A DNA stretch of 36,938 bases from a virus. A model generated the notes under the pieces. That model ran no database searches and was not told where the DNA came from. It was given only the letters and a program-made list of their open reading frames with translations. A program made the position numbers and the translations under genes. Location: IMG/VR virus record IMGVR_UViG_3300021368_002365, positions 1-36,938 of that record; one strand, given 5' to 3'. Position 1 is the stretch's first letter. Every line of letters starts with the position of its first letter. Below are positions 1,597 through 10,505 of this stretch, piece by piece.

Positions 1597-1655
1597 TGTG
1601 CCACTTGTAGAACTGGCACAGTATGCTTGACTTTAGGCGGATAATCCCTTATATT
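1597..1655 (+). promoter_or_regulatory. IR24-promoter cassette 1
   Basis: The inverted repeat is TGTGCCA (1597-1603), ten bases containing TGTAGAA, then TGGCACA (1614-1620). Six bases later come TTGACT (1627-1632), a 17-bp spacer and TATATT (1650-1655), a near-consensus sigma70 promoter. The repeat centre is 41.5 bp from the start of the -10. The spacer holds AGG and CCT arms (1635-1637, 1647-1649) centred 8 bp before the -10. No T run follows the repeat, so it is not a standard terminator. Confidence 0.8.
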
Positions 1656-1679
1656 AGGAGGGTAGTCAAGTCAAGCATA
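1622..1679 (+). repeat. 12-bp inverted repeat bracketing promoter 1
   Basis: TATGCTTGACTT (1622-1633), which contains the -35 hexamer, is the exact reverse complement of AAGTCAAGCATA (1668-1679), whose last base is the first base of the start codon. The two arms enclose the promoter core and the predicted transcription start. It may be an operator pair for a looping or autoregulatory repressor. Only the downstream arm would be present in the RNA, so an RNA hairpin is unlikely. Confidence 0.6.
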
Positions 1680-1819
1680 TGACTTCAATTCGATTCACTT
1701 ACGACATCCAAACCCAAGAAAAAGTTTATGTTGTGGTTAAGAACAATAAATATGTTTTAACCAACTCAATTACGAATGCAATTCGTATTTCCCAAAATGA
1801 AACACAAGAAAATCAATAA
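1679..1819 (+). CDS. small hypothetical protein (46 aa)
   Basis: The ATG at 1679-1681 gives a beta-rich 46-aa peptide (SIRFTYDIQTQEKVYVVV at the start, then KYVLTNSITNAIRIS). It is the first ORF after promoter 1. Only a weak ribosome-binding site is visible: the AGGAGG at 1656-1661 lies upstream of the predicted transcription start and 17 bases from the ATG, so it is probably not used. The next ORF starts inside its end in another frame. No family recognised. Confidence 0.55.
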   Translation: MTSIRFTYDIQTQEKVYVVVKNNKYVLTNSITNAIRISQNETQENQ

Positions 1820-1937
1820 ACCAATAAAAGAAGACAGTGAAATGTCTTTAGGTGAATTGATTGACACTCCAAAGTTTCAAAAAGAACTTTGTAAGTGCTC
1901 TCCTTGTAATTGTTCAAAATCTTCTAAACAAGTCTAA
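1797..1937 (+). CDS. small Cys-cluster peptide (46 aa)
   Basis: ATG 1797-1799 overlaps the end of the preceding ORF by 23 bases. The 46-aa product begins with a Lys-rich segment and ends with CKCSPCNCSK, giving a CxCxxCxC array at residues 32-39 that could bind a metal ion. The rest is charged and probably helical (MSLGELIDTPKFQKEL). The overlap with its neighbour and the ordered cysteines argue that it is real, but a peptide this short may be chance. It is not a recognised family. Confidence 0.55.
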   Translation: MKHKKINKPIKEDSEMSLGELIDTPKFQKELCKCSPCNCSKSSKQV

Positions 1938-1971
1938 TCTCAATCTTGATTATTCTAATTCTTATTTCAAA

Positions 1972-2205
1972 ATGAAATTCAAACTATCTCTTCAAGAATA
2001 CGAAAAGCAACTTAAGATTGCAAAGAAAAAATATGATAAACTTTGCAAACAATATAAAAGGTGTAAAAGTGCTTATCAAGCGGAAATGATTGCAGAAGAT
2101 TTGGAGGATACACGTCAAGACGTGATTGAACTTCAAATTATTCTAAATGAAATTAGGCAAGAAAAGAAACTTCACGAATGTGATCCTTCTCAATTTGTTT
2201 ACTGA
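1972..2205 (+). CDS. coiled-coil hypothetical protein (77 aa)
   Basis: The 77-aa protein starts at ATG 1972. The frame is open further upstream from a TTG, but that would overlap the preceding ORF heavily. Residues 5-68 form an almost unbroken charged helix with heptad-like spacing (SLQEYEKQLKIAKKKYDKL, later LEDTRQDVIELQIILNEI), so a dimeric coiled coil is likely. Two Cys flank the middle (CKQYKRC). It is the third ORF of the unit driven by promoter 1. No function recognised. Confidence 0.7.
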   Translation: MKFKLSLQEYEKQLKIAKKKYDKLCKQYKRCKSAYQAEMIAEDLEDTRQDVIELQIILNEIRQEKKLHECDPSQFVY

Positions 2206-2227
2206 TAAATTACCTATAAAAACAATT

Positions 2228-2479
2228 ATGGAAGAAGTTAATTTTTCTGGTGTATTTCTAACTGCTGAAGAGCACGGTTGCCTTTATACAGTTTGCTCTG
2301 AAGGTGAATTGTACTATACACCATTATATAAAGATGGTAGTGCAAATCTTGAAGAGTTTGATTTTGTAGATTTTGAAGAAAGTGATGCTGATGATAAACA
2401 ACTTGAAGAAATTCAAGAAGTTCTTTGTAAAATGATGCAGGTTGCAGGTCTTTACTTTAGACCTGCTGTGCCAGTCTAA
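2228..2479 (+). CDS. small acidic hypothetical protein (83 aa)
   Basis: ATG 2228-2230 yields an acidic 83-aa protein with an N-terminal beta region (residues 1-38, with an ELYYTPLYKDGS strand pair) and a strongly acidic middle (EEFDFVDFEESDADDK). An upstream ATG at 2147 is rejected because it lies inside the preceding gene. The stop codon (2477-2479) falls inside the loop of the second IR24 element, so gene end and regulatory element are fused. No family recognised. Confidence 0.7.
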   Translation: MEEVNFSGVFLTAEEHGCLYTVCSEGELYYTPLYKDGSANLEEFDFVDFEESDADDKQLEEIQEVLCKMMQVAGLYFRPAVPV

Positions 2480-2525
2480 AATCTGGCACAAAACGCTTGC
2501 AAAAGCACCTAGGTGGTGCTATATT
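2467..2525 (+). promoter_or_regulatory. IR24-promoter cassette 2
   Basis: TGTGCCAG (2467-2474) pairs with CTGGCACA (2483-2490), an 8-bp stem around a divergent loop that holds the upstream stop codon. TTGCAA (2497-2502), 17 bp and TATATT (2520-2525) follow. The repeat centre is 41.5 bp before the -10, as in cassette 1. The spacer contains a second palindrome, AGCACC (2504-2509) with GGTGCT (2515-2520), ending on the first T of the -10. The stem is kept although the loop has changed. Confidence 0.8.
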
Positions 2526-2551
2526 AAAAAAGTCGATTAAGGAGTTCTTCA

Positions 2552-2698
2552 ATGTCTGTCAATGAAATGGTTCTTCACGATGATTACGAATCTTTTGCCA
2601 GTTATCTCGGTGTAGATTATGACGATTATTATGAAATGATCAATGATTTGAATCTTGAATCTGAGGAAATTGAGATTGAATACTCTTTGACTATTTGA
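2552..2698 (+). CDS. small acidic hypothetical protein (48 aa)
   Basis: A good ribosome-binding site (TAAGGAG, 2538-2544) sits seven bases before ATG 2552, and promoter 2 ends 26 bases upstream, so this short ORF has the best expression signals in the region. The 48-aa product is highly acidic and Tyr-rich (DDYESFASYLGVDYDDYYEM), a composition seen in DNA-mimic and host-takeover peptides, but that comparison is speculative. It leads an operon that runs to 4386. Confidence 0.75.
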   Translation: MSVNEMVLHDDYESFASYLGVDYDDYYEMINDLNLESEEIEIEYSLTI

Positions 2699-2711
2699 CT
2701 ATTTGATTATT

Positions 2712-3152
2712 ATGACTGAATTTGCAGATTTTCTTTCTTCAAGATCTAACACAACTTTACAAATGGAAAAAGTAATTGATCTCATTGAACAGTTTTGTGA
2801 TGTTCTTCGTACTAACTTTCAAGAGTATGCAATTTATCAACATCGACGTTACATCTTACAAAATAAAAATGTAGAATTTCATCAAAAACAAATTGATGAA
2901 ATTTGTGAAGGTGAAGGTTTAGATCAATTTGTGTATGAAAAAGGTAGGAAATATGCTAAAGTTATTCACGTAACATCAGCAGGAAACAAAAGTGCTCACG
3001 CATTCGTAGATTTGAAAACAGGTGATGTATATAAATCTGCAAGTTGGAAATCACCTGCAAAAGGTATTCGATATAATCTTCTAGATGAAAAATCCAGAAC
3101 TGAAATGTATAAGCGTGCAGACTGGGCAGGTTCTTATCTTTACAGCAGATGA
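2712..3152 (+). CDS. conserved cyanophage-type hypothetical protein (146 aa)
   Basis: The start is ATG 2712. An in-frame TTG at 2703 is possible but unnecessary. The N-terminal half (residues 5-75) is helical. The C-terminal half (residues 77-146) is a compact domain with KYAKVIHV, SAHAFVDLKTGDVYKSASWK and a final RADWAGSYLY, a pattern I recall in several unannotated proteins of marine T4-like phages. The alternation of strands and Trp/Tyr/Gly suggests a small beta barrel. It overlaps the next gene by four bases. No biochemical role is known to me. Confidence 0.75.
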   Translation: MTEFADFLSSRSNTTLQMEKVIDLIEQFCDVLRTNFQEYAIYQHRRYILQNKNVEFHQKQIDEICEGEGLDQFVYEKGRKYAKVIHVTSAGNKSAHAFVDLKTGDVYKSASWKSPAKGIRYNLLDEKSRTEMYKRADWAGSYLYSR

Positions 3153-3337
3153 AAAATGAATACTATGAAGGTCTAGAAATTAGCTATCAAGGTCAAAATG
3201 GTACTATACGTTTTATTTGTGATTCTTATATTACAATGTGCATTCATTTAGATGAAGTAAAATTCAGAGATGTTTGCATTGTAATCTACCCAGAGAGATA
3301 CTCTGAAGTCAAACTACTAAAACAATCTACAAAATGA
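3149..3337 (+). CDS. small conserved phage protein (62 aa)
   Basis: A 62-aa all-beta protein beginning MKNEYYEGLEISYQGQNGTI with a central FICDSYITMCI segment and C-terminal PERYSEVKLLKQSTK. The overall form (a small SH3-like barrel of about 60 residues) resembles short conserved ORFs of cyanomyoviruses, but I cannot name a function. It is coupled by ATGA overlaps to the genes on both sides, between the 146-aa protein and the nuclease-like gene. Confidence 0.75.
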   Translation: MKNEYYEGLEISYQGQNGTIRFICDSYITMCIHLDEVKFRDVCIVIYPERYSEVKLLKQSTK

Positions 3338-3834
3338 CTCCTGAAGAAAAGTTTCAACAACTCTTTGAACAAATGTATTCTCTTTGTAATGAACAGGGTT
3401 GGGGTGATCCTTTTTCTTATGCAAGATCTAGAGAGATTCATATGGCAGGTGTTTTGAATCATCAAATTGCAAAAGATTATAGTGGTGCTGATGCTTATGA
3501 TGAAGATGGTGGAGCAGAATATAAGTCAACTATTGGCAAAAATATAAATGCAACCTATAATGGAATTAGTGTTCAGGATACTTGGGAAGAACAAGAGAGA
3601 TATTTGATCGAAGATAAGATTGGTAAATATAAGAACCACTATTATGCACGCTATGAGGGTGGTAAAATTGTAGAAGTTTGGAAGTTAGATTGTAATGATG
3701 TACTTGCTATTATTCTTCCTAAAGCAAAGAAACAATATCCAAACAAAAAGAATGGCAATGCTAAAGATCCTCGTATTGGCATAACTATCTCTAAGAAAGA
3801 AATTTATTCAGTTGGAACCTGCATTTTTGGTTGA
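3334..3834 (+). CDS. PD-(D/E)XK-type nuclease-like protein (restriction endonuclease-like)
   Basis: The 166-aa protein has an N-terminal helical part (residues 4-48, including LNHQIAKD) followed by a plausible PD-(D/E)XK core. Asp53 and Asp56 (GADAYDEDGG) are followed by Glu62-Tyr-Lys64, giving D-x8-E-x-K on adjacent strands, as in type II restriction enzymes. After it come NATYNGIS and a charged region (EEQERYLIEDKIGKYKNHYY) of a kind seen in restriction-type nucleases. It overlaps the previous gene by four bases and the next gene, a methyltransferase-like protein, begins four bases after its stop. It could act on host DNA or form a restriction-modification-like pair. The family call is by motif reading only. 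Confidence 0.6.
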   Translation: MTPEEKFQQLFEQMYSLCNEQGWGDPFSYARSREIHMAGVLNHQIAKDYSGADAYDEDGGAEYKSTIGKNINATYNGISVQDTWEEQERYLIEDKIGKYKNHYYARYEGGKIVEVWKLDCNDVLAIILPKAKKQYPNKKNGNAKDPRIGITISKKEIYSVGTCIFG

Positions 3835-3837
3835 TTT

Positions 3838-4386
3838 ATGTTAAACTCTAAAAAGATTATGTATTCATCAGGAAGTAATGATGAATCATATACACCTGAT
3901 TATGGTGTAAAACCAATTCTAAAATATATCCCTAAAGACGCTATCGTATGGTGTCCATTTGATACTGAAGAAAGTGAGTTTGTAAAACAGATTGGAGAGC
4001 AAAATGAAGTGATTCATTCTCATATTGAAGATGGGTGCGACTTCTTAACTTATGAACCAGAGTTTCATAAGTGGGATGTAATCGTGTCAAATCCACCTTT
4101 TACTAATAAGAGAAAATACTTTGAAAGAGCATTATCATTTAACAAACCTTTTGCAATGATAATGACGAACACTTGGTTGAATGATTCTGCACCAAAGCAA
4201 TTGTTTAAGGATAAAGATCTTCAACTTCTGATGTTTGATAAAAGGATGAGATTTACTAATCCTGATGGTAGACCTAACGATAAGATTACATTTAGTAGTA
4301 GTTATTATTGTTGGAACTTTCTTCCAAAACAAATGATCATAGAAGAACTTGATGTGCCAACTAAGAAAGCGGCACAAAGCACTTGA
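3838..4386 (+). CDS. adenine-specific DNA methyltransferase-like protein (NPPF)
   Basis: The 182-aa protein carries NPPF at residues 85-88 within DVIVSNPPFTNKRKYF, the catalytic motif IV of N6-adenine and other amino methyltransferases. The usual AdoMet-binding motif I (FxGxG) is not visible. VWCPFDTEES (37-46) and VIHSHIEDGCDFL (58-70) occupy the expected positions of motifs I and II/III, a form I recall from small phage methylase-like proteins. It may be an active short enzyme or a degenerate one. It directly follows the nuclease-like gene. Its last codons overlap the third IR24 element, so coding sequence there is constrained twice. Confidence 0.65.
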   Translation: MLNSKKIMYSSGSNDESYTPDYGVKPILKYIPKDAIVWCPFDTEESEFVKQIGEQNEVIHSHIEDGCDFLTYEPEFHKWDVIVSNPPFTNKRKYFERALSFNKPFAMIMTNTWLNDSAPKQLFKDKDLQLLMFDKRMRFTNPDGRPNDKITFSSSYYCWNFLPKQMIIEELDVPTKKAAQST

Positions 4387-4411
4387 CTTCTAAGTCAATT
4401 CTCTGTATAGT
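4353..4411 (+). promoter_or_regulatory. IR24-promoter cassette 3 (overlaps a gene end)
   Basis: TGTGCC (4353-4358) and GGCACA (4371-4376) form the inverted repeat inside the last codons of the methylase-like gene, with a changed loop. TTGACT (4383-4388), 17 bp and TATAGT (4406-4411) follow. The centre is 41.5 bp before the -10. The -35 hexamer is part of a palindrome, TTGACTT and AAGTCAA (4383-4389, 4392-4398). The TACGAAGTAA element follows the -10. Confidence 0.7.
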
Positions 4412-4432
4412 TACGAAGTAAAGAAAAAAACA

Positions 4433-4567
4433 ATGTACGAATCCACACTTGACCTTTTTTGCAACGAAGATGATGATAAATTTGCTGAAGAGTTCTGGTT
4501 GGAAATTGAAAGGAAAGCAGCAGAACTAGAAGTAACTGTTGATTATTTTATGATGGAATTTATGTGA
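4433..4567 (+). CDS. small acidic peptide (44 aa)
   Basis: ATG 4433 follows promoter 3 by 22 bases. The 44-aa product is acidic and helical (LFCNEDDDKFAEEFWLEI, then ERKAAELEVTVDYFMMEFM). Support comes from the promoter, a start codon at the same distance as in cassettes 5 and 6, and the fact that nothing else is encoded before the tRNA that begins seven bases after its stop. It could instead be only the leader of the tRNA transcript. No family recognised. Confidence 0.5.
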   Translation: MYESTLDLFCNEDDDKFAEEFWLEIERKAAELEVTVDYFMMEFM

Positions 4568-4574
4568 TTCCTTT

Positions 4575-4645
4575 GCCCTTATAGTTAAAAGGTATAACAG
4601 TTGCCTTGTAAGCATCAATTTCCAGTTCAATTCTGGATAAGGGCT
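4575..4645 (+). tRNA. tRNA-Thr (anticodon TGT)
   Basis: The cloverleaf can be folded by hand: acceptor GCCCTTA (4575-4581) with TAAGGGC (4638-4644), D stem GTTA/TAAC with a GG-containing loop, anticodon arm GTTGC/GCATC with loop CTTGTAA, and T arm TCCAG/CTGGA with loop TTCAATT. The anticodon is TGT, reading ACA and probably other Thr codons. One T-T mismatch lies in the second pair of the anticodon stem. No CCA is encoded. It is co-transcribed from promoter 3 and would serve the ACA-rich, AT-biased late genes. Confidence 0.9.
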
Positions 4646-4660
4646 TTTACTTAACAAAAC

Positions 4661-4718
4661 TGTGCCACCTGTAGAACTGGCACAGTAAATGAGCACAGAC
4701 CCCAAAATGGTCTATATT
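4661..4718 (+). promoter_or_regulatory. IR24-promoter cassette 4
   Basis: TGTGCCA (4661-4667) and TGGCACA (4678-4684) flank a ten-base loop with TGTAGAA, 16 bases after the tRNA. TGAGCA (4690-4695), 17 bp and TATATT (4713-4718) follow. The centre is 40.5 bp before the -10. The spacer palindrome is AGACC (4697-4701) with GGTCT (4709-4713). The promoter serves the helicase gene. Sequence from here to 4745 is nearly duplicated at cassette 7. Confidence 0.8.
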
Positions 4719-4724
4719 GGTTAA

Positions 4725-4742
4725 GTGGTCGAGAGGGACCAC
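4725..4742 (+). promoter_or_regulatory. predicted 5'-terminal mRNA hairpin of the helicase transcript
   Basis: GTGGTC (4725-4730), GAGAGG loop, GACCAC (4737-4742). Counting seven bases past the -10 places the transcription start at about 4725, so the RNA would begin with this stem. The twin at 7867-7884 keeps the fold with a C-to-T change that turns a C-G pair into a U-G pair. A role in RNA protection or translation control is inference. Confidence 0.6.
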
Positions 4743-4763
4743 ACTCAAATTTTATTCTTTTCT

Positions 4764-5972
4764 ATGCCACTTCTTTCTTATCAAAAACTTGCTGTTTCTC
4801 AGATCAAAAAGCATAAGAAAGGAACTATCTTCATTCCTACTGGTGGTGGTAAAACATATGTCTTTATGACAGATGCAAAGAATCGTATTCAAGAATCTGA
4901 TTCTCCACTCACTATTGTTGTTGTTGCTCCTCGTATTCTTTTGTCTGAGCAACTTGCATCTGAGTTTCAAGAGTTTCTAAAAGATGAAGAGATTTCAATT
5001 ACTCACGTTCACTCTGGACACAAGAATGGTACAACAAAACCACACGTAATTGCAACTTATGATGCTGCTATAAAAGCACTGAATAAACATCATATTATAT
5101 TCACAACTTACAAATCTCTTGAGAGGGTGAATGAGTCTGGCATTCCTATGAATGTTGTTTATTTTGATGAAGCACATAATGCAGTGAAACCAGCAACTCA
5201 AGTTGGTGTTGCCCATACTTCTCAAGTCTCAGATAATACTTACTTTTTCACTGCAACTCCAAAGATTGCAATGAATCAGACAAATATCTATGGTTCTAAC
5301 ATTGTCTCGGTGTCTGCTACTGAATTGATAAGCGCGGGAACTATTCTTTCCCCTAAAGTGGAAACTTATGAGTTCAACGAGATACGAACGAAAGAGAATG
5401 CACCACTTGTCGATGCAAGTAATGTCATAGGTATTCTTAGTGAAGTCGAGGAAGAGAATCCTAAAGTTCTGGTTGCAGCACCATCAACAAAAATCATTTG
5501 GGAGTCATTGTCACAGACTGCACTGTTGAATGATCTGAATGCAATGGGTTACACAGTTATGCATATCACTTCAAAGCACGGTGCATATATCGACAGGAAG
5601 AAAGTAAGTCGTGGAGTATTCTTTGAAAAACTGACAGAGTATGGAAATGATCCCACAAAGAAAATCATTGTGTTTCACTATTCAATCCTGTCAGAAGGTA
5701 TCAATGTGCCCGGATTGACTCATTGCATTATGCTTAGGAATCTTCCGACAGTTGAGATGTTACAAACAATCGGTAGGGTCATTCGAGTTGCAAAGGAAGA
5801 CAGAGATGCTATTGAGAAGAGAAAGATTCAACCAGGGCAATTTGAGTTCTACAAAAAGTCGGAGGGCAAAATTATCATCCCAATATCTAAGGGATACGGA
5901 GCTAACATTCAACGGAACATTCAGAATCTCGTTGATGCGGTATTTGTCCAGGGTCAGACTGTAGTTTCTTAA
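4764..5972 (+). CDS. SF2 DNA/RNA helicase, DEAH type
   Basis: ATP-driven nucleic-acid translocase of superfamily 2. With ATG 4764 the protein has 402 aa: Q-like motif LSYQKLAV (4-11), Walker A PTGGGKT (25-31), motif Ia VVVAPRILLSEQ (52-63), Walker B FDEAH (134-138), motif III FTATP (162-166), motif V SEGINVPG (310-317) and motif VI QTIGRVIR (334-341). All motifs for activity are present. It is shorter than, and different in sequence from, UvsW as I recall it, so a recombination or restart role is only a guess. A GTG at 4725 would add 13 residues but coincides with the predicted transcription start. The 3' half is somewhat richer in GC than the 5' half. Confidence 0.9.
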   Translation: MPLLSYQKLAVSQIKKHKKGTIFIPTGGGKTYVFMTDAKNRIQESDSPLTIVVVAPRILLSEQLASEFQEFLKDEEISITHVHSGHKNGTTKPHVIATYDAAIKALNKHHIIFTTYKSLERVNESGIPMNVVYFDEAHNAVKPATQVGVAHTSQVSDNTYFFTATPKIAMNQTNIYGSNIVSVSATELISAGTILSPKVETYEFNEIRTKENAPLVDASNVIGILSEVEEENPKVLVAAPSTKIIWESLSQTALLNDLNAMGYTVMHITSKHGAYIDRKKVSRGVFFEKLTEYGNDPTKKIIVFHYSILSEGINVPGLTHCIMLRNLPTVEMLQTIGRVIRVAKEDRDAIEKRKIQPGQFEFYKKSEGKIIIPISKGYGANIQRNIQNLVDAVFVQGQTVVS

Positions 5973-6016
5973 GTTTCCGCGATTCCAAATTAACTAACAT
6001 TCATTTTTCCGCAATT

Positions 6017-6337
6017 ATGCCACGCTTTGAAGCACAAATTTGGGTTGATGGAGAACTCCCTTATCAGGTTGAAACTAATGCGGCAAATGTATTTGCTGCT
6101 AAAAACATCATTGCAAGGCGTGAGGGTGTTAAAAATCATCAAGTTCAACGTGTTTTTCAAATAAATGATGACAATGATTCATTCGACTCTGACACTAGTG
6201 ATGAAGGAAATTTTGATCTAGGTGGAACATTTGCATTGATCATTATTGGTATTTGTATTGTATTTTGGAAGTGGGTATTAATTATTGGATCAATTGCATT
6301 CATTGCTTGGTTAATCTATTATTTCAAGAGTGAGTAA
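6017..6337 (+). CDS. small membrane-anchored protein (106 aa)
   Basis: Residues 1-50 form a soluble domain (FEAQIWVDGELPYQVET, then a helix NAANVFAAKNIIARREGV), resembling a short phage fold that processes one strand-helix unit. Residues 51-66 are an acidic Ser/Asp linker. Residues 70-102 are hydrophobic (TFALIIIGICIVFWKWVLII, then GSIAFIAWLIYYF) and form one long or two short transmembrane helices, with the soluble part probably cytoplasmic. It follows the helicase by 44 bases with no separate promoter seen. The function in the host membrane is unknown. Confidence 0.75.
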   Translation: MPRFEAQIWVDGELPYQVETNAANVFAAKNIIARREGVKNHQVQRVFQINDDNDSFDSDTSDEGNFDLGGTFALIIIGICIVFWKWVLIIGSIAFIAWLIYYFKSE

Positions 6338-6345
6338 GAATAATA

Positions 6346-6404
6346 TGTGCCAGTTGTAGAAGTGGCACAGAACACTCCCAAACCGCCTCCATATGCCCTA
6401 TAAT
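6346..6404 (+). promoter_or_regulatory. IR24-promoter cassette 5
   Basis: TGTGCCA (6346-6352) and TGGCACA (6363-6369) lie nine bases after a stop codon. The -10 is a perfect TATAAT (6399-6404), but the -35 position reads TCCCAA (6376-6381), so recruitment may depend on an activator at the inverted repeat. The centre is 41.5 bp before the -10. The -10 runs into the TACGAAGTAATCAATCA leader shared with cassette 6. Confidence 0.7.
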
Positions 6405-6428
6405 TACGAAGTAATCAATCAGAGACCT

Positions 6429-6617
6429 ATGTTTGTTGTTTGTCCTGTTCAATACAATCTAATGGATGCTGAATGGTATGATAACATTGATGACGCATCT
6501 GATAATGCACTTGAATGGAGTGTTGATCTTCAAGGATCTAATGTGAAAGTTTATGAGGCAATCTATCAAGATGATGGAAGTTGTTCTTTCAAAGCGTTAA
6601 AATCTATCTGTGCCTGA
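6429..6617 (+). CDS. small hypothetical protein (62 aa)
   Basis: ATG 6429 is chosen over the in-frame ATG at 6393: the latter lies inside promoter 5, upstream of the predicted start of transcription, and the chosen ATG has the same distance from the -10 as the start of the 7129 gene with the same leader. The 62-aa product mixes strands and one helix (MFVVCPVQYN, WYDNIDDASDNALEWSV, NVKVYEAIYQ), giving a beta-alpha-beta-beta outline. No family recognised. Confidence 0.7.
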   Translation: MFVVCPVQYNLMDAEWYDNIDDASDNALEWSVDLQGSNVKVYEAIYQDDGSCSFKALKSICA

Positions 6618-6628
6618 AATCTTAAATT

Positions 6629-6796
6629 ATGAGTTTAATTAAGTCTGAACTTATGGATATGCTCACTGCCCGTGAACAATTGATGGAAGACATTGATTGT
6701 ATCATTGAATCAAATTTAGGTGAGATTGATTACAAAGATGATGTAATCCGTCAACTTTGTGATGCTGTTTGTAAAAACTTTCCAATTAACAAATGA
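6629..6796 (+). CDS. small helical protein (55 aa)
   Basis: ATG 6629 opens a 55-aa ORF whose stop TGA (6794-6796) overlaps the next ATG at 6793. The product is acidic and helical (MSLIKSELMDMLTAREQLME, then YKDDVIRQLCDAVCKNFPINK). Position between two other ORFs, with 11 bases before it and an ATGA overlap after it, supports translation as part of the unit from promoter 5. No family recognised. Confidence 0.65.
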   Translation: MSLIKSELMDMLTAREQLMEDIDCIIESNLGEIDYKDDVIRQLCDAVCKNFPINK

Positions 6797-7041
6797 ACGA
6801 ACAACAACTTGAACAACTCAAACTCAATTATGCTGAGATGATTGTTGATGGTATGGATATGGATAGTCTGATTACTTTTGCTGTTGAGAGTATTGAGCAG
6901 AACATTAAAGATTGGGATGAGGATGATGTGAAGGAAGAGATTGTTGAGTATTATGGTGAAGACACACTGAATGATTTGCTTCCCAAACCTACCATCAGTG
7001 AGTTAGAATTATCTGCACCTGATTATGGTGTAGGAAAATGA
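6793..7041 (+). CDS. small acidic hypothetical protein (82 aa)
   Basis: This strongly acidic 82-aa protein has an N-terminal helix (NEQQLEQLKLNYAEMIVDGM), a second helix with an SIEQNIKDWDEDDVKEEIVE run, and a short C-terminal tail ending SAPDYGVGK. Such acidic helical phage proteins of 60-90 residues are frequent in marine T4-like phages and mostly unassigned. It starts with a four-base overlap and closes the unit from promoter 5, six bases before the next IR24. Confidence 0.75.
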   Translation: MNEQQLEQLKLNYAEMIVDGMDMDSLITFAVESIEQNIKDWDEDDVKEEIVEYYGEDTLNDLLPKPTISELELSAPDYGVGK

Positions 7042-7046
7042 TACCT

Positions 7047-7105
7047 TGTGCCACCTGTAGAAGTGGCACTAACAACCCCCATAGCGCCCCCTGAGGCGCT
7101 ATAAT
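7047..7105 (+). promoter_or_regulatory. IR24-promoter cassette 6
   Basis: GTGCCAC (7048-7054) pairs with GTGGCAC (7063-7069) around CTGTAGAA. The -10 is TATAAT (7100-7105). The -35 position is CCCCAT (7077-7082), far from consensus. The centre is 41.5 bp before the -10. The spacer palindrome AGCGCC (7083-7088) with GGCGCT (7095-7100) ends on the first T of the -10, as in cassette 2 but with different sequence. Confidence 0.75.
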
Positions 7106-7128
7106 TACGAAGTAATCAATCAACCACT

Positions 7129-7311
7129 ATGGCAACTCGATACAGTGTCCTCTGTCCTTCACAACCTCAAGAATCTGAATCTGTATTAACATTAGATCAG
7201 GCGTGGGATGTATGTTATGATCTTGCCGAAGAGTTTGGTTATGCTGAGGTGAGAGATCCCAATGGTGATTACATTGGAGATTGTGGTAATCCTGCATCAT
7301 TCTTTAACTGA
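7129..7311 (+). CDS. small hypothetical protein (60 aa)
   Basis: The ORF starts 29 bases after the beginning of the TATAAT of promoter 6. The 60-aa acidic product reads MATRYSVLCPSQPQESESV, a helix DQAWDVCYDLAEEFGYAEV, then DPNGDYIGDCG: strand, helix, strand with a final turn. This layout resembles small phage proteins that interpret as a single beta-alpha-beta unit. No named family and no catalytic residues are visible. Confidence 0.75.
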   Translation: MATRYSVLCPSQPQESESVLTLDQAWDVCYDLAEEFGYAEVRDPNGDYIGDCGNPASFFN

Positions 7312-7332
7312 TTCAATCAACCCATTAACAAA

Positions 7333-7575
7333 ATGACTACTTCTACACTTTCAACTGAAACCTATCAAGGTTGGGCAAATTACGAGACTTGGAATGTCGC
7401 ACTTTGGATTGGTAATGATTATGGACTTTATAATCAAGCAAGGAGATCCAAAAACTATCAAGATCTTGTGAACTATTTGTATGAGTGTGGATCAACTGAA
7501 ACTCCAGATGGTGTTGAATGGACTGATACAAAGATCGATGGTATTGCTATCAATGATATGATGAAAGATCTCTGA
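7333..7575 (+). CDS. conserved phage protein with NYETWNVALWI motif (80 aa)
   Basis: The 80-aa product holds the words GWANYETWNVALWIGND and LYNQA (residues 13-36). This motif is shared by a widespread family of small phage and bacterial proteins of unknown function (I recall it under the number DUF7249, but am not certain of the number). The C-terminal half is acidic (DGVEWTDTKIDGIAIND). It follows the 60-aa gene by 21 bases in the unit from promoter 6. Confidence 0.8.
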   Translation: MTTSTLSTETYQGWANYETWNVALWIGNDYGLYNQARRSKNYQDLVNYLYECGSTETPDGVEWTDTKIDGIAINDMMKDL

Positions 7576-7640
7576 TTGATGATTGACCTGATGATGTCAT
7601 TAAACTCATTGTATTGTACATTCTAACTTCTTCTTTTATT

Positions 7641-7796
7641 ATGACTTCTTCAACTATTGAATTCCCCCGTAATGTTGCTATTGATATGCTTCGCAAGGGA
7701 AACAATGGTAATGAGATTCTTCAGATCCTGAATGTTATTGTTCCTGATCAAGATGATGCACCTAACGAAGGTACACTAGAACCCATCGAATTCTGA
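7641..7796 (+). CDS. small hypothetical protein (51 aa)
   Basis: ATG 7641 is preferred to the upstream in-frame ATG at 7614, which has no ribosome-binding site and lies closer to the previous gene. The 51-aa product has one amphipathic helix (NVAIDMLRKGNNGNEILQIL) with a hydrophobic tail strand (NVIVPDQD) and an acidic end. It is the last ORF of the unit from promoter 6, seven bases before the next IR24. No family recognised. Confidence 0.65.
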   Translation: MTSSTIEFPRNVAIDMLRKGNNGNEILQILNVIVPDQDDAPNEGTLEPIEF

Positions 7797-7802
7797 TGCC
7801 AC

Positions 7803-7860
7803 TGTGCCACCTGTAGAAGTGGCACAATAAATGAGCATAGACCTCAAAATGGTCTATACT
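7803..7860 (+). promoter_or_regulatory. IR24-promoter cassette 7
   Basis: TGTGCCA (7803-7809) and TGGCACA (7820-7826) flank CCTGTAGAAG. TGAGCA (7832-7837), 17 bp and TATACT (7855-7860) follow. The centre is 40.5 bp before the -10. The spacer palindrome AGACC (7839-7843) with GGTCT (7851-7855) and the leader are near copies of cassette 4, although the downstream genes are unrelated. Confidence 0.8.
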
Positions 7861-8088: not shown

Positions 8089-8131
8089 TGGTATAATTGT
8101 TAACATATTAAAAATATGTTAAAAAACCATT
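8087..8131 (+). repeat. nested AT-rich hairpin at the start of the non-coding region
   Basis: TTAACATATT (8100-8109) and AATATGTTAA (8113-8122) form a perfect 10-bp stem with a 3-base loop. AATGGT (8087-8092) and ACCATT (8126-8131) form an outer stem. It begins in the stop codon of the last short gene. The lack of G-C pairs in the inner stem makes it a poor terminator, and it could equally be an operator. Confidence 0.6.
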
Positions 8132-8230
8132 TAATCTGTTCTTATTGTGTATCTAATGTCTCTTAATGTCTCCACTTATTGTAGTCTTGGCCTGCATTAT
8201 ATCACAAAAACTTCGTGGTGTCAAGAGAAC

Positions 8231-8254
8231 TGGGACACCTGACAAAGTGGCACA
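8231..8254 (+). repeat. decayed copy of the IR24 element
   Basis: This 24-base stretch keeps ACACCTG and AGTGGCACA at the positions of the intact copies, but the left arm has become TGGGACA and the loop has changed, so the stem is lost. No promoter lies at the usual distance. It suggests that an eighth cassette once ended the array. Confidence 0.6.
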
Positions 8255-8260
8255 CTGGGA

Positions 8261-8323
8261 GTTTTCCACAACCCTGTGGAAAACTATTTTTCCACAAGTA
8301 ATTAATAGTTTTCCACAGGGTTG
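8261..8323 (+). other. cluster of four TTTTCCACA (DnaA-box-like) sites within inverted repeats; candidate origin
   Basis: TTTTCCACA occurs at 8262-8270, 8288-8296 and 8309-8317 on the + strand and at 8275-8283 on the - strand. GTTTTCCACA (8261-8270) and TGTGGAAAAC (8275-8284) form a 10-bp stem with loop ACCC. A second, 20-bp perfect inverted repeat joins 8269-8288 to 8304-8323. TTTTCCACA is the DnaA box form reported for cyanobacteria (E. coli: TTATCCACA). An alternative reading is an intrinsic terminator, since CTATTTTT follows the first stem. Confidence 0.6.
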
Positions 8324-9776: not shown

Positions 9777-10505
9777 ATGAGTCATCTACTAGTAAATTTA
9801 CCCTCAGAAAAAGTTTGGGTTAGAAAAGAATATCTAAGAGATCTCAAAGATGGTCACGGTGAATTTGTAGAAGGTGTCTGGGTATCGGTTAAATCGATTC
9901 CTGGACGTGCCTTTTACTTTGAGACCTATTTACCAGAATACGGTGCAATGTTCGATAAACTTCCTATCAGTGCATTTGTGTCTAGACCTGAAACTCCTAC
10001 TCCAGATCTAGATCTACCAAACCTACAGTTCTGGAATTGTATGGATTATGGAGTTACTACAATTTGTAAACAATTCACTGCTTCAATGGATTGGCAAATT
10101 AAAACTCGTCATTTTGGAAATATGAATGGTTATTATGTTTGCACATTGGATAATTATCATGCAAATCCAGATGTAATTGATTATTCTACAAGTGAATCGC
10201 CATCTGAACATAAGTCATTTAATGTAATTAACTTAAAAAATGGTCAGTTTGCATTGTATCCAAACAATAGGTGTAGAATCTTTGATCTTAGTTTAACTCC
10301 AGAAAATCCAAAGGATCCTGACTTCAAAGTTTCGACTGAATATTATCAGGTTGAGAATGATATTGGTTGGGGAAGACTTGGTGATACTGATGAGTATTTC
10401 TGGGAGACGACGGATGAAAAGTATTCAAGTCTATCAGTTACTCTTCCTATGCCAAATGATATAACGGATGAAAAAGATTCAATCTTAAGGTTTGAGAGAA
10501 TTTAG
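9777..10505 (+). CDS. conserved cyanophage-type hypothetical protein (242 aa)
   Basis: The protein starts MSHLLVNLPSEKVWVRKEYL and continues with a beta-rich N-terminal domain (residues 1-75: GVWVSVKSIPGRAFYFETYL, then GAMFDKLPISAF) that would fit a barrel, a Trp/Cys-rich centre (LQFWNCMDYGVTTICKQFT) and a C-terminal domain ending LPMPNDITDEKDSILRFERI. I recall similar unannotated late proteins next to this glycosyltransferase in cyanomyoviruses. No catalytic motif is visible. It follows the glycosyltransferase gene by 12 bases, likely in one transcript. GC falls back to the usual low level here. Confidence 0.75.
   Translation: MSHLLVNLPSEKVWVRKEYLRDLKDGHGEFVEGVWVSVKSIPGRAFYFETYLPEYGAMFDKLPISAFVSRPETPTPDLDLPNLQFWNCMDYGVTTICKQFTASMDWQIKTRHFGNMNGYYVCTLDNYHANPDVIDYSTSESPSEHKSFNVINLKNGQFALYPNNRCRIFDLSLTPENPKDPDFKVSTEYYQVENDIGWGRLGDTDEYFWETTDEKYSSLSVTLPMPNDITDEKDSILRFERI

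Follow-up and report, generated by a model that had tools for sequence, protein, structure and literature searches.

Several cyanophage promoters are known to carry sites of host regulators, like the PhoB boxes on phage pstS or NtcA sites. These sites act on single auxiliary metabolic genes under nutrient cues. In the PeSL cassettes of T4-type phages, a repeat that serves as an RNA terminator is combined with a sigma70 early promoter, and the cassettes separate small variable genes. Cross-talk between phage and host transcription was also described for pMarR of cyanophage P-SSP7, a phage protein which acts on a host promoter (PMC9692554). The closest described system is the control of the small RNA (sRNA) Yfr2 in picocyanobacteria. 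As described in PMC6778093, which cites Lambrecht 2018, yfr2 promoters with the CGRE1 motif are bound by the GntR regulator PMM1637 of Prochlorococcus MED4, “common to all cyanobacteria”, which also mediates the induction of Yfr2. Here, we analyzed a viral stretch of 36,938 nt, IMGVR_UViG_3300021368_002365 (the window), which contains eight cassettes composed of a 24-bp dyad and a downstream -10 hexamer. The dyad or half-dyad and its distance to the -10 are the same as in the Yfr2 system, but the phage sites are located on many promoters, are mostly full two-sided dyads and drive small phage genes instead of an sRNA. Like the PhoB and NtcA promoters the cassettes would carry a host transcription factor site, but as a many-copy element of the early region. 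As in PeSL cassettes, a sigma70 promoter adjoins an inverted repeat, whereas the dyad is a DNA element without a T run. The direction is opposite to that of pMarR: phage promoters would be the target of a host protein.

We propose, with a probability of about 0.72, that cyanophages place the site of the host Yfr2 regulator on their early promoters and that the host GntR recruits host polymerase to the takeover genes. Each cassette would then join a sigma70 promoter to an activator site of host type. The dyad, with its centre about 41.5 bp before the -10 and close to position -53 from the expected start, immediately ahead of the -35, would be bound by a dimeric host protein, most likely a GntR of the PMM1637 type. 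There it would recruit the host sigma70 polymerase and replace the -35 contacts. Since infected cells contain this protein from the outset, it could serve the first phage promoters, and the early small-gene units would be switched on together and at once.

The connection to the host is based on the Yfr2 promoters. In 386 cyanobacterial genomes, the full motif was found at 11 sites, by which a broad host regulon is ruled out. Cyano-1 (RF01701), which we take to be the Yfr2 sRNA family in agreement with the shared GTGTGAGGAG 5' motif, adjoins the site in 8 of 10 fetched host regions, with the dyad about 30 bp before the sRNA -10. For a non-circular test, Yfr2 genes were picked by RNA family alone and the eight motif-selected regions were subtracted by hand. 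22 of the 57 unselected upstream regions score at least 13/18 (less than one expected), and the -10 lies at 29-31 bp in 16 of the 17 regions with a callable -10. This distance matches those in phages (28-30 bp) and in the window (28-29 bp). Judged from these sequences, the hosts use the dyad at essentially one kind of gene, the small RNA Yfr2. Several Cyanobium-type genomes carry one related site each (TGTGCCACTAGTTCACCTGTCACA or similar) near sequence resembling ribosomal RNA; no regulator gene could be traced from these sites.

All four host genomes tested encode a GntR domain, whereas none of the 12 phages tested does. The recognition helix GLHRNTISKVY is identical in two picocyanobacterial and two other cyanobacterial proteins, and the helix-turn-helix is nearly identical between them, so that one site could serve distant hosts. 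A host regulator is favoured because the host Yfr2 promoter has this same site with this geometry and because the 12 phages lack GntR. We infer that CGRE1 corresponds to the dyad described here and that the phage promoters are bound at their dyads and activated by the host GntR.

In the window, the dyads and promoters are arranged as follows, all copies except the last on the plus strand:

1597..1620, plus strand: dyad copy 1, TGTGCCACTTGTAGAACTGGCACA
1627..1655, plus strand: promoter 1, TTGACT-17-TATATT
2467..2490, plus strand: dyad copy 2, TGTGCCAGTCTAAAATCTGGCACA
2497..2525, plus strand: promoter 2, TTGCAA-17-TATATT
4353..4376, plus strand: dyad copy 3, TGTGCCAACTAAGAAAGCGGCACA, one core mismatch, within the 3' end of the open reading frame (ORF) 3838-4386
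4383..4411, plus strand: promoter 3, TTGACT-17-TATAGT
4661..4684, plus strand: dyad copy 4, TGTGCCACCTGTAGAACTGGCACA, directly 3' of tRNA-Thr 4575-4645
4713..4718, plus strand: promoter 4, -10 TATATT without -35, of the class with TAAATGAGCACAG in the -35 region
6346..6369, plus strand: dyad copy 5, TGTGCCAGTTGTAGAAGTGGCACA
6399..6404, plus strand: promoter 5, -10 TATAAT without -35
7047..7070, plus strand: dyad copy 6, TGTGCCACCTGTAGAAGTGGCACT, one core mismatch
7100..7105, plus strand: promoter 6, -10 TATAAT without -35
7803..7826, plus strand: dyad copy 7, TGTGCCACCTGTAGAAGTGGCACA
7855..7860, plus strand: promoter 7, -10 TATACT without -35
8231..8254, minus strand: dyad copy 8, TGTGCCACTTTGTCAGGTGTCCCA, degenerate
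8196..8224, minus strand: promoter 8, perfect TTGACA-17-TATAAT, leftward

With up to three mismatches, the pattern matches nine times in the window compared to 0.55 times in shuffled sequences, and none of 100 shuffles reaches nine. From the end of the dyad to the start of the -10, the distance is 29 bp in copies 1, 2, 3, 5, 6 and 8 and 28 bp in copies 4 and 7, which places the dyad centres 41.5 or 40.5 bp ahead of the -10. A first-pass annotation of the window had listed seven such cassettes. All seven dyads and -10 hexamers were found where it had placed them, with these same centre distances, and the minus-strand copy 8 had been missed, which brings the total to eight. It had also described two copies (5 and 6) as lacking a -35; four of the eight (copies 4, 5, 6 and 7) in fact have none that reaches 4/6. 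Its statement that the stems stay paired does not strictly hold, as mismatches occur at arm position 7 in copy 3, at position 1 in copy 6 and at two positions in copy 8. Copies 4 and 7 (4685-4718 and 7827-7860) form a class with the 28-bp offset, in which TAAATGAGCACAG is conserved in the -35 region and a dyad is located in the spacer; this class is also present in other phages and is perhaps the target of a second regulator. In copies 3, 5 and 6 (4406-4421, 6399-6417 and 7100-7118), the expected start is spanned by another short dyad, TATAATTACGAAGTAAT, which was also found in many Synechococcus phages.

The cassette is widespread in cyanophages. In the scan of viral contigs, at least 120 stretches carry at least 233 exact sites, and their distance to the -10 is sharply peaked. 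The relaxed motif yielded 475 distinct sites among the matches listed from viral contigs and nine genomes, the window included. Among these listed sites, the distance is 29 bp in 192, 30 bp in 96 and 28 bp in 31 cases, compared to 3.9 sites for each of the other offsets. Repeats at other spacings in relatives, which the first-pass annotation had named as an argument against its fixed-geometry regulatory cassette, were looked for, and the sharp peak favours the cassette. 283 of the 475 sites could be oriented. A -35 of at least 4/6 is present in 93 of these, compared to 22 in shuffles, and the rest lack one. These -35-poor promoters fit an activator which substitutes for -35 contacts: with the polymerase recruited by the bound protein, about two in three oriented phage promoters would manage without a good -35.

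Sites are present in P-SSM2, Mic1, Syn9, S-PM2, P-HM2, S-CRM01, S-SSM7, P-RSM4, P-TIM40, ACG-2014f, S-T4 and S-SKS1, with as many as 44 copies per genome (Mic1), while a control with the reversed pattern gave one match over all 15 named phage records. The motif scan found no sites in T4, P-SSP7, Ma-LMM01, S-SM2, S-TIM5, PSS2 and S-CBS2. Phages scored as site-poor may hold degenerate sites, like S-RIM8, where the promoter ahead of CobS carries TGTGGCAATCCAAGACCTGTCCAC 29 bp before TATAAT. The cassettes occur in myoviruses and a siphovirus, as a many-copy element of the early region.

The placement agrees with early transcription where it can be compared. In Mic1, all 44 sites are located at 57.3-72.1 kb, the last four up to about 225 bp past gp73 and the others inside the block gp49-gp73 (52.6-71.9 kb), the genes of which all point in one direction. 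In the published time course, 23 genes between gp49 and gp73 were classed as early (PMC11237433). The Mic1 dyads are often paired, about 57-62 bp apart, around pioneer early genes. In the window, all eight sites fall into the first 8.3 kb (chance about 6e-6), a region of small ORFs mostly without known function, a DNA methyltransferase, a DNA helicase and a tRNA-Thr. The remaining 28 kb, mostly structural genes, contain no dyad site, and the structural module is free of them.

The first-pass annotation had suggested that the repeat, which ends each upstream unit, might act on RNA as well. This is not borne out by the pair statistics. The consensus of the dyad is TGTGMCAsTT-N4-AAsTGKCACA. The 283 oriented sites contain 74 core deviations, none with a compensating change. 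At position 5/20, 102 sites (about a third) have A-G or C-T, with no covariation, and at position 8/17 G-G or C-C prevails, with pairing below the chance level (0.30 vs 0.45 in shuffled sequences). In ACG-2014f, nearly all sites read TGTGACA...TGGCACA, which would leave a mismatch in the middle of the stem of any hairpin. Because no core deviation is compensated and position 8/17 pairs below the shuffled level, the dyad is a DNA element that fits protein binding and not a hairpin; an RNA hairpin or terminator is ruled out by the same statistics and by the missing T run. The view of the first-pass annotation that the repeats are a regulatory cassette of fixed geometry and not terminators, based on the missing T run and the constant distance to the -10, is supported. 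It is very improbable that the cassettes are PeSL-like, with a stem-loop terminator of the upstream unit and an early promoter kept together for recombinational gene shuffling and the repeat acting as RNA. The dyads do lie between small-gene units, the overall layout resembles that of PeSLs in T4-type phages, and RNA folding of single copies is possible (z about -4 to -5 in two of four tested). However, such folding is trivial for a dyad, A/G, G/G or C/C oppositions are common within the supposed stem, the constant distance to the -10 would be left unexplained, and at Yfr2 the host copy belongs to a promoter.

If a protein binds the dyad, it could also be encoded by the phages. The density of sites is much higher in phages than in hosts, and gp73 of Mic1 was reported with a helix-turn-helix. 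Nevertheless, we consider a phage-encoded DNA-binding protein on the dyads improbable: Mic1 is unrelated to the T4-like phages, a phmmer search for a regulator common to Mic1 and all T4-like phages gave no candidate and only PhoH is shared, a phage protein cannot explain the same dyad and spacing at the host Yfr2, and early promoters are needed before phage proteins exist. The MarR regulator of P-SSP7 was dropped as a candidate, since P-SSP7 has no sites. Sigma54, suggested by the resemblance of the arm TGGCAC to a -24 element, was dropped as well; cyanobacteria are not known to possess sigma54, and the -10 is sigma70-like. Slightly less improbable, but still unlikely, is the opposite sign for the same host GntR, which would repress or delay the early promoters or shut them later, with the dyads as timing operators. 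The site and the host link would be identical, the pioneer (E1) genes of Mic1 peak at 0.5 h and are lowest by 4 h, and the minority of promoters with a good -35 needs no activator. On the other hand, a dyad upstream of the -35 is in a typical position for an activator and not for a repressor, two thirds of the promoters are without a good -35, and a lytic phage would gain little from up to 44 host repressor sites near its first genes. At the host Yfr2 promoter, moreover, the regulator mediates induction (PMC6778093). The suggestion of the first-pass annotation that one regulator, probably recruiting polymerase, serves several small gene units is supported, and its choice between a phage and a host protein now points to the host.

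Several points weigh against activation by the host GntR. In the chain from dyad to CGRE1, GntR site and phage early activation, the middle links combine literature with inference, and the equation of CGRE1 with the dyad depends on our own reading of the yfr2 promoters. Picocyanobacterial Yfr2 promoters chiefly show the left half TGTGMCAGTT or a variant, with a poor second half-site. A dyad of 24 bp is long for a GntR operator, and a centre near -53 is outside the classical activator positions. At the threshold used, 192 of the 475 listed sites have no single orientation. S-SM2 and S-TIM5 are cyanophages of the same hosts, yet without sites, and the agreement with published early timing refers to Mic1 alone.

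For the largely open question of how the first cyanophage genes are activated in the most abundant photosynthetic cells, the element offers a concrete DNA site, a candidate host protein and single-base predictions. Phage takeover would be linked to a host regulator associated with light and nitrogen stress. A literature search found no host-regulator site described as a general early-promoter element; the original CGRE1 paper, outside this search, may mention phages. Tentatively, and rather speculatively, cyanophages of different families may have convergently adopted the site of a single GntR that is universal in cyanobacteria as a general early activator, with up to 44 strong sites per genome titrating the regulator off Yfr2. 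If so, replicating phage DNA would draw GntR from Yfr2, connecting the takeover to a loss of light and nitrogen control by this sRNA.

The window is a piece of a T4-like cyanomyovirus and encodes neck protein gp14, baseplate wedge subunits, a tail sheath stabiliser and the small terminase subunit. The tRNA-Thr (TGT) at 4575-4645 lies inside the early region. Downstream of promoter 8, no clear ORF was found on the minus strand (8090-8196), and this perfect consensus promoter possibly drives a small RNA. Four TTTTCCACA boxes, which resemble DnaA boxes, adjoin copy 8 at 8262-8317, and AT-rich repeats continue to about 8.9 kb; together they possibly form a replication origin. Positions 9777-10502 match a PHROG family annotated as ferredoxin, which belongs to the class of auxiliary metabolic genes.

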